Positions 1,470 through 6,008 of a stretch of 6,008 nt of DNA are shown piece after piece. The position numbers and the translations under genes were made by a program. Within the stretch, counting starts at the first letter, position 1. The number at the start of each line of letters is the position of its first letter. Where the stretch lies: NCBI GenBank assembly GCA_003142355.1, contig PLMF01000264.1:12754-18761 (forward strand), given 5' to 3'. The DNA is from Bryobacterales bacterium. GTDB taxonomy: Bacteria; Acidobacteriota; Terriglobia; Bryobacterales; Bryobacteraceae. The notes under the pieces were generated by a model. That model worked only from the letters and a program-made list of their open reading frames with translations. It did not search any database and was not told where the DNA came from.

Positions 1470-2087
1470 ATGAACCACTTCTCCGCGCTGCGGCTCACGA
1501 AAGTGGCCGAAGCGGCCTTTCCGACGCAATTCGGTTCCTTCCGGATCTATGGATTCGAAGGCCGCGATGGTGACCTCACCGAAGAAGCGGTGGTGCTGAA
1601 AATGGGGGAATTGGCGGGCGGCCCCCCTCCGCTGGTCCGCATTCACTCCCAGTGCCTGACCGGAGACGTGTTTCACAGCTTGCGCTGCGATTGCCGCGCG
1701 CAGCTCGAGATTGCGCTCCGGAGCATCGCCCAGGAGGGCCGCGGCCTGCTCATCTACGAGCATCAAGAGGGCCGCGGTATCGGCCTGCTCAACAAGCTCC
1801 GCGCTTACGAGCTGCAAGACCATGGCGCCGACACCGTGGAAGCCAACGAGCGCCTCGGATTCGACTCGGACCTGCGCAGCTACGAGCTGCCCGGGGCCAT
1901 TCTGCAATACTTCGGATTGAAGGCGGTCCGACTGCTCTCCAACAATCCGCAGAAAGTGGAAGCCGTGGAGAGGGCCGGCGTCGAAGTGGTCGAGCGGGTG
2001 CCCTGCCTGGCCGACGTGCTGGATACGCGCGAATCCTATCTGCGCACCAAGAAGGAAAAGATGGGCCACCTGCTGGAGGATTTCTAG
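1470..2087 (+). CDS. ribA: GTP cyclohydrolase II
   Basis: Cytoplasmic zinc enzyme that opens GTP to 2,5-diamino-6-ribosylamino-4(3H)-pyrimidinone 5'-phosphate with release of formate and pyrophosphate, the first committed step of riboflavin synthesis. The 205 residues match the length of stand-alone RibA. Visible signatures are the zinc ligands Cys62, Cys73 and Cys75 in CLTGDVFHSLRCDC, the nucleotide-binding stretch HQEGRGIGLLNK (98-109), and Tyr113, Asp134 and Arg136, aligning with E. coli Tyr105, Asp126 and Arg128. The C-terminus TKKEKMGHLL is typical. The ATG at 1470 is the only start after the upstream in-frame stop at 1449. Its nearest purine-rich site, AAGGAG (1443-1448), is 21 nt away, unusually far, so initiation may rest on other contacts. 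There is no RibB (DHBP synthase) domain fused and no other rib gene beside it. I see no FMN-riboswitch-sized leader. Confidence 0.97.
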   Translation: MNHFSALRLTKVAEAAFPTQFGSFRIYGFEGRDGDLTEEAVVLKMGELAGGPPPLVRIHSQCLTGDVFHSLRCDCRAQLEIALRSIAQEGRGLLIYEHQEGRGIGLLNKLRAYELQDHGADTVEANERLGFDSDLRSYELPGAILQYFGLKAVRLLSNNPQKVEAVERAGVEVVERVPCLADVLDTRESYLRTKKEKMGHLLEDF

Positions 2088-2162
2088 CGAGGCTGGAACC
2101 GCCGGTACTTTTCCCCGGTTTCGCAGCAAACAATACTAGCCACGCGACGGAACCCGTAGTAC

Positions 2163-2194
2163 TTGTCCTCATCGGCCGCGCAGCCCAGTATAAG
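2163..2194 (+). promoter_or_regulatory. Possible promoter for the PilZ-like gene
   Basis: TTGTCC (2163-2168) and TATAAG (2189-2194) resemble -35 and -10 boxes, but their 20-bp spacing is longer than ideal. If used, transcription would begin near 2201, which would rule out the alternative start at 2199 and favour the ATG at 2238. The gap after ribA (2088-2237) holds no clear terminator, so read-through from ribA is also possible. Confidence 0.25.
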
Positions 2195-2237
2195 ATCAAT
2201 GGCGCAAACTATTGCCTCCGCGAATGGCTGGGCTTCC

Positions 2238-2579
2238 ATGGCCTTCAGCCTCCTGAAGCGTGGCCTGTGGGCCGTGGCCGGCCGCAGCCGGCCGGAGGGC
2301 CGGGCGTTGGGCCAACCCGAACGTCGTCTCAACCACGGGTTAAAGGGTCATTTCAAGGCCAAGATCTACGACCAGTCCGGCTGGATGCGGGTCCGTGGAG
2401 TGGACATGCACGCGGAGGGCGCCTTGGTCATGGCCAGCAAGCCCCTGGCGCCGCAGTCGCCAGTGTTCGTGCACTTGAAGAGTTTCGGGCTGATGGGGTT
2501 TGGGCAAGTGCGGCACTGCACCAGGCGGGGGCCGTGGCGCTACGCCATCGGGGTGGTGTTCCCTGCTCCGTTGATGTAG
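2238..2579 (+). CDS. PilZ-like domain protein (divergent)
   Basis: Predicted 113-residue cytoplasmic protein whose second half (about residues 40-113) reads as a small PilZ-type beta barrel: a strand KAKIYDQSG, then RVRGVDMHAEGALVM, PVFVHL, LMGFGQVRHC and YAIGVVF. PilZ domains bind cyclic di-GMP through an RxxxR motif and a later [D/N]xSxxG motif. Here the second motif appears as DMHAEG (56-61), with His in place of Ser. The first is incomplete: the Arg29-Arg30 pair has no second Arg four residues on. Cyclic di-GMP binding is therefore uncertain. Starts at 2199 (ATG) and 2163 (TTG) are also in frame. I prefer 2238 because strong third-position G/C begins there, but no start has a good Shine-Dalgarno sequence. 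The assignment rests on motif reading alone. The gene downstream lies 46 bp away on the same strand. Confidence 0.65.
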   Translation: MAFSLLKRGLWAVAGRSRPEGRALGQPERRLNHGLKGHFKAKIYDQSGWMRVRGVDMHAEGALVMASKPLAPQSPVFVHLKSFGLMGFGQVRHCTRRGPWRYAIGVVFPAPLM

Positions 2580-2581
2580 GG

Positions 2582-2596
2582 AGGAGGCGGCCTCCT
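2582..2596 (+). other. Short hairpin after the PilZ-like gene
   Basis: AGGAGG (2582-2587), CGG, CCTCCT (2591-2596) is a perfect 6-bp inverted repeat starting 2 nt past the PilZ-like stop codon. Its left arm is itself a perfect Shine-Dalgarno sequence, so the stem would hide it. No T run follows, so it is not a standard terminator. The next accepted start (2626) is too far away for that Shine-Dalgarno sequence to serve directly. Confidence 0.4.
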
Positions 2597-2625
2597 GCCG
2601 ACGGGCTGCCAACGTTCATGCGACG

Positions 2626-2934
2626 ATGGGGCGTGTGGACGCCACCGATCCGGAGCAGCGGACCAGGGCCGAATGCGCCAGCCGCCGACAGGCGTTCCAA
2701 ATGATCGAGGCCCTGCGCAAGTCGGACAACCCGAGTGTCCGCCAGATCGAGTGGATCGGCAGCGGGCCGCGGGTCAGCGTACGGGAGACCCGTTGCATCT
2801 CCGCAACGCATTTGGGCGCCGCCGCCGGAAAGGGGATTCAGCCGCGCGATTTGAAGGTTTCCGACATCCAGGCCAGGCTCCGGGCCGACGGCGTGAGCTT
2901 CGACGTGGGCGACCGGGAACAGAAGAACCTGTAG
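2626..2934 (+). CDS. Hypothetical protein, 102 residues
   Basis: I do not recognise this protein. It is probably real: nearly all codons end in G or C throughout, unlike the frames around it. It is charged and soluble, with no signal peptide or membrane segment. Residues 18-34 look like an amphipathic helix (RRQAFQMIEALRKS), followed by alternating short strands (QIEWIG, RVSVRETR) and a mixed C-terminal half containing DLKVSDIQARLRADGV. It has only two cysteines, spaced too far apart to suggest a metal site. The ATG at 2626 has no good Shine-Dalgarno sequence and the frame is open further upstream, so the true start could lie earlier. It follows the PilZ-like gene by 46 bp on the same strand and may be expressed with it. 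Confidence 0.6.
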   Translation: MGRVDATDPEQRTRAECASRRQAFQMIEALRKSDNPSVRQIEWIGSGPRVSVRETRCISATHLGAAAGKGIQPRDLKVSDIQARLRADGVSFDVGDREQKNL

Positions 2935-2939
2935 GTTGA

Positions 2940-2958
2940 AGCTCCACAAGTTGGAGCT
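2940..2958. repeat. Perfect 7-bp inverted repeat after the hypothetical gene
   Basis: AGCTCCA (2940-2946), CAAGT, TGGAGCT (2952-2958) forms a 7-bp stem starting 5 nt after the stop codon of the 102-residue gene. No T run follows on either strand, so it is not a classical terminator. It may protect the 3' end of the mRNA or assist factor-dependent termination. It also lies at the far edge of the decayed DUF481 region. Confidence 0.4.
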
Positions 2959-3037
2959 AGAATGGAAATATCGGCATAAAGGCCAAAAGATGAAGGTCCC
3001 CCACCGACCAGAATTGCCAGCGGAGACAGGAGCCACC

Positions 3038-3148
3038 TCAATCAGTCTTAATCCTGGTGGCGACGCCGAGATCGAGGTTCACGCGGTAGGCGCCCGTATC
3101 CGAGAGATTATTGAACATTCGAAAACTCTGGGTGAGCGAACTGGCGGC
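3038..3148 (-). pseudogene. In-frame C-terminal remnant of the DUF481 gene
   Basis: Beyond the stop codon of the DUF481 reading frame (TGA at 3208-3206), the same minus-strand frame continues after a foreign stretch into ASSLTQSFRMFNNLSD, then TGAYRVNLDLGVATRIKT, up to a second TGA at 3040-3038. From memory of the family, DUF481 barrels carry a closely similar segment (SxLTQSFRMFNNLxDTGxYRxNxDLG) near the C-terminus, so this is the missing end of the gene at 3206-3766. No start codon or ribosome site serves it separately. Past the second stop, CLRWQFWSVGDLHL (about 3028-2987) weakly resembles the next family segment (LSWQxSVxDRxL), suggesting the decay extends to about 2960. No alignment was run. 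Confidence 0.65.
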
Positions 3149-3190
3149 AACGCCAAAACTCTGACATTCACGACGGCTTGGAACGCGGCG
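3143..3190 (+). other. Inverted fragment of the DUF481 gene
   Basis: On the plus strand, opposite to the DUF481 gene, this stretch reads GGNAKTLTFTTAWNAA. That matches the start of the DUF481 barrel (pattern GNxxTxxFTTxxNAxR), exactly the part missing from the minus-strand gene at about 3434. The piece therefore seems to have been cut from its place and reinserted backwards some 250-290 bp away. GGCGGC (3143-3148) fits both the fragment and, as GCCGCC, the C-terminal remnant on the other strand, so it could be the microhomology at which the pieces were joined. The resemblance is from memory of the family, not an alignment. Confidence 0.5.
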
Positions 3191-3205
3191 CCAACCATTC
3201 CAGTT

Positions 3206-3766
3206 TCAGCACGCCATTGACCCGCCGCCGAGGAGGTTCAATGCGCTGCGTTTGTTCTTGACCGCGTGTAATCCGAAACCGCCTCCAATTACAAACCGCA
3301 GGTCCAGATTCTGGAACCTGTCGTACTCGTAATCGTTAAAGAAATTCACAAACAGGCGCGGGCTGGCGGTCTGGCCATTGATCAAAGCCGAAGCCTTGAT
3401 CAAATTGAAATCGAGGGAGATCTTGTCCGTGGTCATAGCGGCGACTTCGCCCGGACTCACGTCCACCTTCGTATCCTTGGTGGTGATTCCCACCTTTCCC
3501 TCACTGGGGGCCACCGTGCCCACCAGGGTCTTTCCGTCTTTGAGAACCACATTGACCGGTTGATCCGATTTGAGTGACGCGACCTTGTCCCAGGGAGCGG
3601 TGACAATCCCGAAATTGTCGGTCTTGACGGTAATCGTCTTGCCGTCCTGTTTGAGGATGGTGCCGGTGACGCGATCGCCGTTCTTCATCACCACCTGGTC
3701 CGCCCACGCGGTACTCAAAAGCAGACCGGCAGACACCACCAACCAAAACAGGTGATGGAACTTCAT
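3206..3766 (-). CDS. DUF481-family outer-membrane-type protein, internally deleted and truncated
   Basis: The 186-residue reading frame has a signal peptide (residues 1-22, cleavage after AWA) and a beta-rich region with two related units ([13 protein letters not shown] at 25-37, [13 protein letters not shown] at 73-85). It then passes into DUF481 barrel sequence ([39 protein letters not shown]). DUF481 proteins are predicted outer-membrane beta barrels of unclear role, usually well over 300 residues here. Against that layout, sequence seems missing after residue 111 (the domain linker and barrel start), after residue 134 (one strand pair) and after residue 183. The frame then ends in MAC. 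Both internal losses keep the frame. The ATG overlaps the mscL stop by 4 bp, so translation is probably coupled to mscL. The product probably cannot form a full barrel; read it as a pseudogene or a stump. The deletions are judged from memory of the family. Confidence 0.75.
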
Positions 3767-4221
3767 TGCCTGGCAGGCTCCGGTGAGCTCAGTTGAGAAG
3801 TGCAGTTGGGGCAGCGCGTCGCCGCGATGGGGATTGGCGTGCAGCAGAATTGGCAGACCTTGGTGGTGGGCGCCGCCGGCGCCGCCGCGGGTTTCTTCCC
3901 CAGTTTGCTGGCTTGCTTTACGGTAATGAAGATCACAAACGCAACGATCAGGAAATTGATCACCGTATTGAGGAACTGGCCGTACGCGATGACGGGCGCC
4001 GCGGCGGCTTTAGCGGCCGCCAGCGTCGGATAGCACCGGCCGTTCAGACTGATGAACAGATCCTTGAAGTCCACGTGCCCCAGAGCCAAGCCAATCGGTG
4101 GCATCACAACGTCATTCACCATCGAGGTGACGATGGCGCCGAAAGCAGCGCCGATGATCACGGCAACGGCGAGATCGAGCACGTTGCCCCGCATTACGAA
4201 TTCTTTGAAGTCCTTCAACAT
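3763..4221 (-). CDS. mscL: Large-conductance mechanosensitive channel with C-terminal zinc ribbon
   Basis: Inner-membrane channel that opens under high membrane tension and releases solutes during osmotic downshock; known MscL is a homopentamer. The N-terminus is classical: [20 protein letters not shown] (residues 5-24) then [20 protein letters not shown] covers the amphipathic helix, the first membrane helix with its Gly-rich pore lining, and the first loop. The periplasmic loop (about 48-80) contains one Cys and an Ala-rich stretch. The second helix is about 82-103 ([17 protein letters not shown]). Instead of the usual C-terminal helical bundle, an Ala/Pro linker (109-120) leads to CQFC (123-126) and CPNC (137-140), a four-cysteine zinc-ribbon pattern. 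The protein has 152 residues against 136 in E. coli. A Shine-Dalgarno-like AAAGGA precedes the ATG by 11 nt. The stop overlaps the ATG of the DUF481 gene, so the two form an operon. Confidence 0.96.
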
Positions 4222-4357: not shown

Positions 4358-4897
4358 ATGCGGATGGCTTCTTTCGTACGTAACGCGGCACTGCTGATCG
4401 CGGTGGCCTGCATTCCTGTCGTGGGACAACAGAACACAGGTTCTCTGAAGACGAGCATCAGTCCAGGCCGGGCGGGAGTCTTCATCGACGGCAAGTACAT
4501 CGGGCCGGCCGGGAATTTTGGCATTGGCAGGAAATACACGGTCGCTGCCGGCGAACATGAAGTCAGACTGTCCGAGCCGCGCTACGAAGATGTGGTGACG
4601 AAGGTGACGATTCAGGCGGGAAAGACTACGAAACTGGCTCAAACCATGAAAGAGCTCCCGCTCGCAAAACCACCCTTCGGACTCCTGCGCACTATGTCCG
4701 AGGACAAGTTCGCGGCGGTCTACGTGAACGGCAAGTTCATGGGCCACGCCGGAGAGTTCAACAACCCGGTACAGGGTCTCCAGCTAAACCCGGGCGCGTA
4801 CGCGGTCAAGATCGTTCCCGTTGGCGGCGGAGAAGGGCACGAAGAGCAAGTCAAGATTGAAGCGGACAAGGTAACGATCGTCCGGGCGAAGAAGTGA
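4358..4897 (+). CDS. Secreted protein with two PEGA-like repeats
   Basis: Predicted exported protein of 179 residues. The N-terminal signal peptide (about 1-23: basic start, hydrophobic ALLIAVACIPVV, cleavage near VVG/QQ) includes Cys18, but the preceding AVA is a poor lipobox, so I favour a soluble secreted or periplasmic form. Two similar units follow. Unit one (about 30-98) has AGVFIDGKYIGPAGNF, then KYTVAAGEHEVRL and VTIQAGKTTKL. Unit two (about 108-179) has AAVYVNGKFMGHAGEF, then LQLNPGAYAVKIVPVGG and VKIEADKVTIV. The pattern of a surface-exposed [I/V][D/N]GKxxGxAG turn, a GxHxVxL strand and a closing strand is that of PEGA domains, beta-sandwich modules of envelope proteins with no known enzymatic role. 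AGGAG (4343-4347) lies 10 nt before the ATG, a good ribosome site; an ATG two codons later is possible. Its end overlaps the convergent aminopeptidase gene by 47 bp. Confidence 0.8.
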   Translation: MRMASFVRNAALLIAVACIPVVGQQNTGSLKTSISPGRAGVFIDGKYIGPAGNFGIGRKYTVAAGEHEVRLSEPRYEDVVTKVTIQAGKTTKLAQTMKELPLAKPPFGLLRTMSEDKFAAVYVNGKFMGHAGEFNNPVQGLQLNPGAYAVKIVPVGGGEGHEEQVKIEADKVTIVRAKK

Positions 4898-6008
4898 CAG
4901 TGACGTTGACGTAATAGAGATCCGTCGCCACCTCGAATTGGTCTTTGGGGAGCGGCGTCTCCATGGTCTGCCAGCCGGTTGTGGGTCGAATGATCTGCCA
5001 GTGGTCTTTTGTTCCGACGCGCACCGGCATGGCGAACGCCGGCTCATCGGCCTTCCAGCGATAGGAGACGGTGCCCTTGGCGTCGTCGAACGTCAGCTCC
5101 AGGGTTGGAAGCGCGGCGTGGCGCAGATACTGATCGAAGACCGGCGTCAGGTTCATTCCGGTTTTCCGGTTGAAGTACTCGACCACATCCTCGGTCATGA
5201 TGTTCCGATACTTGAAGTGCTGGTAGAAGCCGCGGATGAGCGCCCACCAGCGGCGGTCATCGTTCACAATGCTGCGAAGCGTGTTGAGGAAGAGCGCGCC
5301 CTTGAAGTACATGTCCTGCGGCGGTGTGGCGTTGACGCCCCGCGGGGCGATGATCGGGAGGGCGTTTTTGACTTTCGATTTGTACCCGTTGGTGTACTTC
5401 AGGGCATCCTTGCGCCCCCACATGTATTCGACGTAGAGGCACTCGAGGTAGGTGGCCCAGCCTTCGTGAATCCACATGTCGGACACGTCGGCGGCGGTGA
5501 TGCTGTTGCCGAACCACTCGTGCGCACTTTCGTGAATGATGATGAAGTCGAACCTCGGGCTGATGCCGACGCCGGTCCAGTCGCGCTCCAGGTAGCCGTT
5601 GGCGAAGTGGTTGCCGTAGGTCACCGCGCTCTGGTGCTCCATGCCGGAATAGGGCGCTTCGATCAGCTTGTAGCCGTCCTTCCGGAACGGATACGCGCCG
5701 AAGTAGTGCTGGAAGGCCTGGAGCATACCCTTGGCCTGAACGAATTGCTTCCTGGCCTTGTCCAGGTCTTCGGGCAAGGCGTAGAAGTCGAGCGGCAGGC
5801 TGCCCAGCCGGCCGGCGAAGTGCTGGTAGTTACCGATGTTCAGCGAGACGTCGTAGTTGTTGATGGGGTAGTGGACGCGCCAGTCCCAGCGCGTGTAGCC
5901 GTCGCCGAGGTCGGTCTTGCCCACGAACTTCCCGTTGGAGACGTCGACCAGACCGTTGGGAATGGACACGCTGATTTGCATGTTCTCGACCTCGTCGCGC
6001 CACTGGTC
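4851..6008 (-). CDS. M1-family metallopeptidase (aminopeptidase), C-terminal part
   Basis: C-terminal 385 codons of a zinc aminopeptidase of the M1 (aminopeptidase N-like) family; the start lies beyond the right edge and the frame is open there, beginning DQWRDEVENMQISV. Such enzymes remove N-terminal residues from peptides. The catalytic core is intact: zinc-binding HESAHEWFGNS (HExxH at 5534-5520) with the third ligand Glu in WIHEGWATYLE, 18 residues after the second His as expected, and the transition-state Tyr in MYFKGALFLNTLR. The substrate N-terminus-binding motif, GAMEN in classical members, reads YSGMEHQSAVTYGN (about 5651-5610), a form I associate with Acidobacteria and Bacteroidetes members. 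After the catalytic domain comes a beta-sandwich (about 5112-4890). The last residues, from about SSPGRSLPC to the stop, are antisense to the end of the PEGA-like gene and may be a tail acquired by loss of an earlier stop. Where it is exported cannot be judged without the N-terminus. Confidence 0.95.
   Translation of the reverse strand, partial: DQWRDEVENMQISVSIPNGLVDVSNGKFVGKTDLGDGYTRWDWRVHYPINNYDVSLNIGNYQHFAGRLGSLPLDFYALPEDLDKARKQFVQAKGMLQAFQHYFGAYPFRKDGYKLIEAPYSGMEHQSAVTYGNHFANGYLERDWTGVGISPRFDFIIIHESAHEWFGNSITAADVSDMWIHEGWATYLECLYVEYMWGRKDALKYTNGYKSKVKNALPIIAPRGVNATPPQDMYFKGALFLNTLRSIVNDDRRWWALIRGFYQHFKYRNIMTEDVVEYFNRKTGMNLTPVFDQYLRHAALPTLELTFDDAKGTVSYRWKADEPAFAMPVRVGTKDHWQIIRPTTGWQTMETPLPKDQFEVATDLYYVNVTVTSSPGRSLPCPLQS

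Follow-up and report, generated by a model that had tools for sequence, protein, structure and literature searches.

Bacterial pseudogenes can decay by illegitimate deletion at short homologies, with internal loss. The DUF481 (PF04338) gene described here, for a predicted outer-membrane barrel protein, lies on a 6,008-nucleotide stretch of a Bryobacterales contig (the window), apparently of a soil acidobacterium. It resembles such pseudogenes in its internal loss at short or no homology, its intact neighbours and the presence of an intact orthologue in a relative, and differs from ordinary decay in two respects: it carries an inverted, displaced insert made of two pieces, and every length change is in frame. 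Short-range template switching offers a second comparison, in which, under a four-point model, an inverted fragment is copied from a source tens to hundreds of bases away; quasipalindrome switching in prokaryotes is also mentioned in that source (PMC7954356). The locus resembles the model in having an inverted fragment of nearby origin between forward flanks, and one of the inverted pieces (C) taken alone has the 1-3-2-4 layout; it departs from the model in that the inverted part comprises two non-contiguous pieces of the reference locus L001 (5354-5400 and 5675-5705), so that one four-point event is insufficient and the other piece (A) needs a further skip. Like DUF481 outer-membrane proteins, some of which are named at source among our protein matches as 'putative salt-induced outer membrane protein YdiY', the gene has the N-terminal segment and several barrel segments; unlike them, it has lost the continuous barrel. 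A literature search found no paper on this locus, which is no proof that none exists. Most likely the locus is genuine and holds a pseudogene that was broken recently by a micro-rearrangement, beside an older one. The decay looks to be of a known, ordinary kind, although its break points are unusually intricate and well preserved.

Our reference, L001 (PMYB01000210.1, from the Bryobacterales isolate fen_178 MAG), is syntenic with the window, collinear with it over most of its length, and holds an intact 350-codon DUF481 gene with the same mscL upstream. The two are 95.7% identical over 809 bases and 96.2% over 1,058 bases on the ribA side, in the same order, 86% identical over 1,465 bases that take in PEGA, mscL and the opening third of DUF481, and 92% identical over 889 bases of the M1 peptidase; among the genomes covered, the genus is represented by one. 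One scan of genome contigs yielded 77 DUF481-relative loci; in 74 of them the match begins at the first residue of the 324-residue query and extends to residue 321 or further. A family-wide DNA search gave matches in at least 122 of 237 genomes, the closest after L001's own genome being G002 (74%) among the matches listed; because the places were not read one by one, that search says little about other scrambled copies. The window matched no plasmid record, none of 72 pattern matches to viral contigs was confirmed, and no Rfam family was found in the window at gathering score.

Other differences between the two loci lie outside the DUF481 gene. In L001 some 2.9 kb, with an 848-aa frame in it, separate the PEGA frame from the M1 peptidase; the window is without this stretch, at 4897-4903. 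In the interval 4851-4900 the end of the PEGA frame (plus strand, to 4897) overlaps that of the peptidase frame (minus strand, to 4851), and the last residues of the peptidase are unlike its end in L001, as if the joint had rewritten the C terminus. At 874-1044 L001 is interrupted by five consecutive N, probably an assembly gap, where the window's frame 92-1498, which resembles a sensor histidine kinase, is continuous; a real deletion is therefore improbable here.

An initial annotation, made from the letters alone, had described a minus-strand DUF481 frame that stops at 3206 and lacks stretches after codons 111 and 134. Alignment to the intact homologue, the check it had proposed, bears this out: the frame running from 3766 is a 186-aa ORF matching PF04338 above the gathering score (31.6 bits, cut-off 21.1), the match covering only profile positions 63-109 of 210, and both missing stretches are confirmed against L001. 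As predicted, this same frame is also taken up again from 3148 (VAASSLTQSFRMFNNLSD...), where it matches codons ~281-312. Relative to L001, the pieces run in the order codons 1-111, 163-186, ~203-248, inverted ~262-251 (C), inverted ~159-143 (A) and forward ~281-312 (Table 1). The forward order is thus without codons 112-162, 187-202, 249-280 and 313-350, parts of the first and third gaps being present in inverted form. With no continuous frame over the whole barrel, this is a broken DUF481 family gene, and its disabling changes relative to the intact L001 orthologue at the same place mark it as a probable pseudogene.

The same annotation had noted an inverted plus-strand segment between the minus-strand pieces. 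That segment is real and, like the minus-strand piece on the 3148 side, matches DUF481, but it is not single: A is fused to C, which had been missed. Piece A has a nucleotide score of 25 and piece C of 29, against a best of 14 in 500 dinucleotide shuffles for each, and C matches at the protein level in 11 of 11 residues. A originates within the 153-bp gap after codon 111 and C is inverted nearly in place, the A-C insert being located between codons 248 and 281. The displacement, put at about 250-290 bp, was about right, measuring 243-289 bases from the expected place at the 3434 junction. Judged on sequence, the annotation's reading of the pieces is accurate. A, C and the flanking junctions span ~410 bases in L001, and 729 of the 1,053 positions of the L001 gene are present in the window, none of them twice (segment limits entered by hand from the alignments). 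For the last ~38 codons (313-350), a tblastn search of the window found nothing with E up to 1. The filler found in their place has no match in G001 or G002, and against 122 loci only matches of 14-22 bases (E about 0.9). Read by eye, this filler past the broken gene contains the palindrome AGCTCCACAAGTTGGAGCT.

Table 1. Features of the scrambled DUF481 locus and its flanks (window positions; codons numbered as in L001)
Feature	Position	Strand	Description
ribA (GTP cyclohydrolase II)	1470-2087		Far side of DUF481, past the FAD fragment and a small frame
Segment without L001 counterpart at this place	2092-2625	+	Replaces the start of the FAD gene; 138-aa frame 2163-2579
FAD-dependent oxidoreductase remnant	2626-2934	+	Three in-frame pieces (2626-2790, 2791-2821, 2822-2934); start gone
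Filler in place of codons 313-350	2935-3045		111 bases; short palindrome at 2940-2958
DUF481 codons ~281-312	3046-3144	-	Forward, in frame with the gene start
Inverted piece A, DUF481 codons ~143-159	3145-3191	+	GGNAKTLTFTTAWNAA; 36/47 bases (77%) against L001 5354-5400 inverted
Inverted piece C, DUF481 codons ~251-262	3192-3222 (protein match to 3225)	+	30/31 bases equal to L001 5675-5705 inverted
DUF481 codons ~203-248	3223-3361	-	After 48-bp in-frame deletion, common AGC; J2, overlap 3
DUF481 codons ~163-186	3362-3433	-	After 153-bp in-frame deletion; J1, overlap 0
DUF481 codons 1-111	3434-3766	-	Protein start, N-terminal beta region; window 3435-3798 89% identical to L001 4891-5254
mscL	3763-4221	-	Upstream of the DUF481 frame; beyond it, PEGA-domain frame and M1 peptidase

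With L001 as template, the overlaps at the seven junctions are 0, 3, 0, 0 and 1 bases in DUF481 and 2 and 7 bases in the FAD remnant, whose joints have CG and CCGCCGG in common. The GGCGGC microhomology suggested earlier for the resumption joint reduces to an overlap of 1 base against this template, a figure that may have been different in the window's own ancestor. All length changes (153, 48, 15 net for the inverted block, 198 and 66 bp) are multiples of three. That the minus-strand pieces stay in one frame, as had been pointed out, is true; the oddness ascribed to this is partly expected from the codon-phase bias of direct repeats, 45-55% of those in DUF481 and about 44-56% of those in the FAD gene being in phase (3-6 bases, 30-400 bases apart). 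Five frame-keeping changes have p = 0.004 at 1/3 each and ~0.02-0.05 under a repeat-phase null, which is only approximate for zero-overlap junctions; since about half of the repeats are in phase, frame keeping is a mild oddity, only mildly unusual. Three inversions separate the signed arrangement P1 B -C -A D from the original; none of the 48 signed orders is further away, and 25 of the 48 lie at that distance.

Decay is not confined to DUF481, as the FAD gene is in three pieces. Its counterpart at L001 6042-7343 is a 433-aa frame, from which 198 and 66 bp are absent between the window's pieces. The fragment's match to FAD_oxidored (PF12831) is weak, its 17.8 bits falling short of the cut-off of 27, and the fragment's relatives among the protein matches mostly carry PF12831. 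In the segment that replaces the start of this gene, the 138-aa frame has matches in 20 of the 237 family genomes; residues ~52-138 are similar, and at the best four places the open frames are 152-159 aa long. Over its first 218 bases (2092-2309), which cover the stretch before the 138-aa frame and the start of that frame, the segment has 72% identity to another part of G001 (L116 1498-1714).

Values of dN/dS against L001, which mostly span the time before breakage, are 0.21 for DUF481 codons 1-110 and 0.05, 0.13 and 0.13 for the other DUF481 pieces, alongside 0.13 for mscL, 0.10 for ribA and 0.19 for the M1 peptidase. The low DUF481 values indicate that most of the divergence from L001 took place under constraint. 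The three FAD pieces, of 55, 10 and 36 codons, have values of 0.55, 0 and 1.3. For all short pieces, with their low counts, the figures are imprecise. The simplest reading of these rates would be that the FAD gene relaxed early and that DUF481 broke recently.

Structure prediction for the 186-aa frame, from 30 aligned sequences (mean pLDDT 59.7, pTM 0.47), gives a confident all-beta part at residues ~20-110 (block-mean pLDDT 81-88), the only part confidently folded. The first break, after codon 111, coincides with the end of this part, and the barrel scraps at residues 115-186 have pLDDT below 50. This would be compatible with a retained N-terminal module, but the N-terminal part is expected to fold in the intact protein too, so its folding does not favour retention over decay. 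The locus can now encode no product longer than the truncated 186 aa and is probably not a working barrel.

Related proteins include a further rearranged form. P0086 (113 aa, on 12 contigs) is without codons 61-117 and has codon ~159 joined to ~245-250, out of frame and in forward orientation. L001 has GCGCGG at both P0086 break sites, and a deletion between this pair, judging by the protein letters, would give P0086; the A-C joint of the window (J4) is ~6 bases off the exact P0086-type junction, whose position is likewise deduced from protein letters. Among the 120 listed of 137 protein matches, apparent breaks were picked out by eye near codon 159 in P0016 and P0085, and near codons 203 and 284 in P0118, which comes from a 6.2-Mb contig. 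P0085 is a recombinant or an assembly chimera, in which a phosphoribosyltransferase frame (PF00156) passes into DUF481 around codon 158, at the stretch FGVARV. The protein search admitted only lengths 0.55-1.75 times that of the 186-aa query, leaving out intact 350-aa proteins and including intact copies only where a later start had been called (324 aa). The notion that DUF481 is broken unusually often in this clade was dropped, the length filter being biased against intact genes and many of the short matches perhaps being contig-end cuts or sequencing frameshifts.

The junctions recur on other contigs. P0001, a 186-aa protein from a 9,180-base contig, agrees with the window in 183 of its 186 residues, which gives it J1, J2 and J3, and ends before the other junctions; its three residue differences argue for a second strain, and its cluster has four members, which may include the window. 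The other inversion joints are covered by P0122, whose plus-strand frame, on a contig of 950 bases, includes the A-C insert. The FAD remnant and its junctions are represented by P0123, from five contigs (the longest has 65,848 bases), among them perhaps that of the window; P0122 and P0123 carry the mark of window-encoded proteins. These occurrences speak against an assembly or binning artefact joining real fragments, an option raised by the initial annotation and in keeping with the probably metagenomic source of the window, and make it very improbable. Retention of the 186-aa product, as a secreted N-terminal module with its frame kept and its barrel discarded, is improbable too. It would account for five out of five length changes being multiples of three, for the N-terminal dN/dS of 0.21, for the same frame in P0001 and for a first break at the end of the part predicted to fold; against this, in-phase repeats make up about half of the direct repeats within the genes in any case, recent breakage would account for the low dN/dS, and the 70-odd residues of barrel scraps would be dead weight. 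Phase variation by a programmed invertible segment, which a short inverted segment within a surface-protein gene might call to mind, has virtually no chance of being correct and was rejected on a repeat scan of 2095-3445 (minimum 12 bases): no inverted repeat pair lies around 3145-3222, the one 12-base pair having an arm at 3218-3229 and its partner at 2765-2776. None of the nine frames scanned, a set outside which frame 92-1498 falls, matches a recombinase family, and flipping A-C would not rebuild the gene because A and C are non-contiguous.

The best explanation, and in our view a probable one, is that a once functional DUF481 gene was recently broken after codon 111 by several rearrangements with 0-3 bases of homology, beside a FAD gene that had apparently been in decay for longer. 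The inverted A-C insert could have arisen by a local template switch, copying backwards on the other strand through C, with a skip from the GCGCGG near codon 248 to the GCGCGG near codon 159 (the pair whose deletion would explain P0086); A would then have been copied before a return to codon 281, and the 153-bp deletion would have removed forward A. An identical product would be expected from break-and-rejoin of small shards, which, as nothing is doubled, is almost as good; we infer that template switching with the GCGCGG skip is the most likely route. Overlaps of only 0-1 bases against L001 at the three inversion junctions provide no specific microhomology for such a switch; the template-switching repair envisaged by the initial annotation stands as a possibility, the microhomology given for it being unsupported. 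Counting against the best explanation are the all-in-frame changes, at p ~0.02-0.05, and P0001, which keeps the truncated frame open in what is apparently another strain. A modest chance attaches to local shattering in a single event, with breaks within about 1 kb rejoined at once and shards reordered or inverted, none of them copied. Such an event would fit the absence of any position used twice, the blunt or near-blunt junctions and an order that otherwise takes three inversions, the maximum distance (tied by 25 of 48 orders), whereas dN/dS suggests from small counts that the FAD gene had been relaxed for longer than DUF481, so the events were probably not simultaneous. No clear intermediate allele was identified among the protein matches listed, for or against shattering. 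We give a smaller chance to one multi-switch replication or shattering event at the scale of the gene, in which four breaks, traced by hand as a single rearrangement cycle, would fall within ~400 bases, with none of the pieces doubled, the frame kept, and the breaks near codons 159 and 248 reused in the P0086 lineage.

Small inverted or displaced fragments are easily overlooked in bacterial pseudogenes, where ordinary alignments make them look like noise or filler. Here an intact relative is close enough to fix the junctions to within a few bases, which makes this DUF481 gene a clean case of bacterial gene loss and a warning against taking such loci for assembly errors or for frame-keeping functional variants. 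If the single event with reused breaks proved true, this gene would be a natural hotspot for studying template switching in bacteria.
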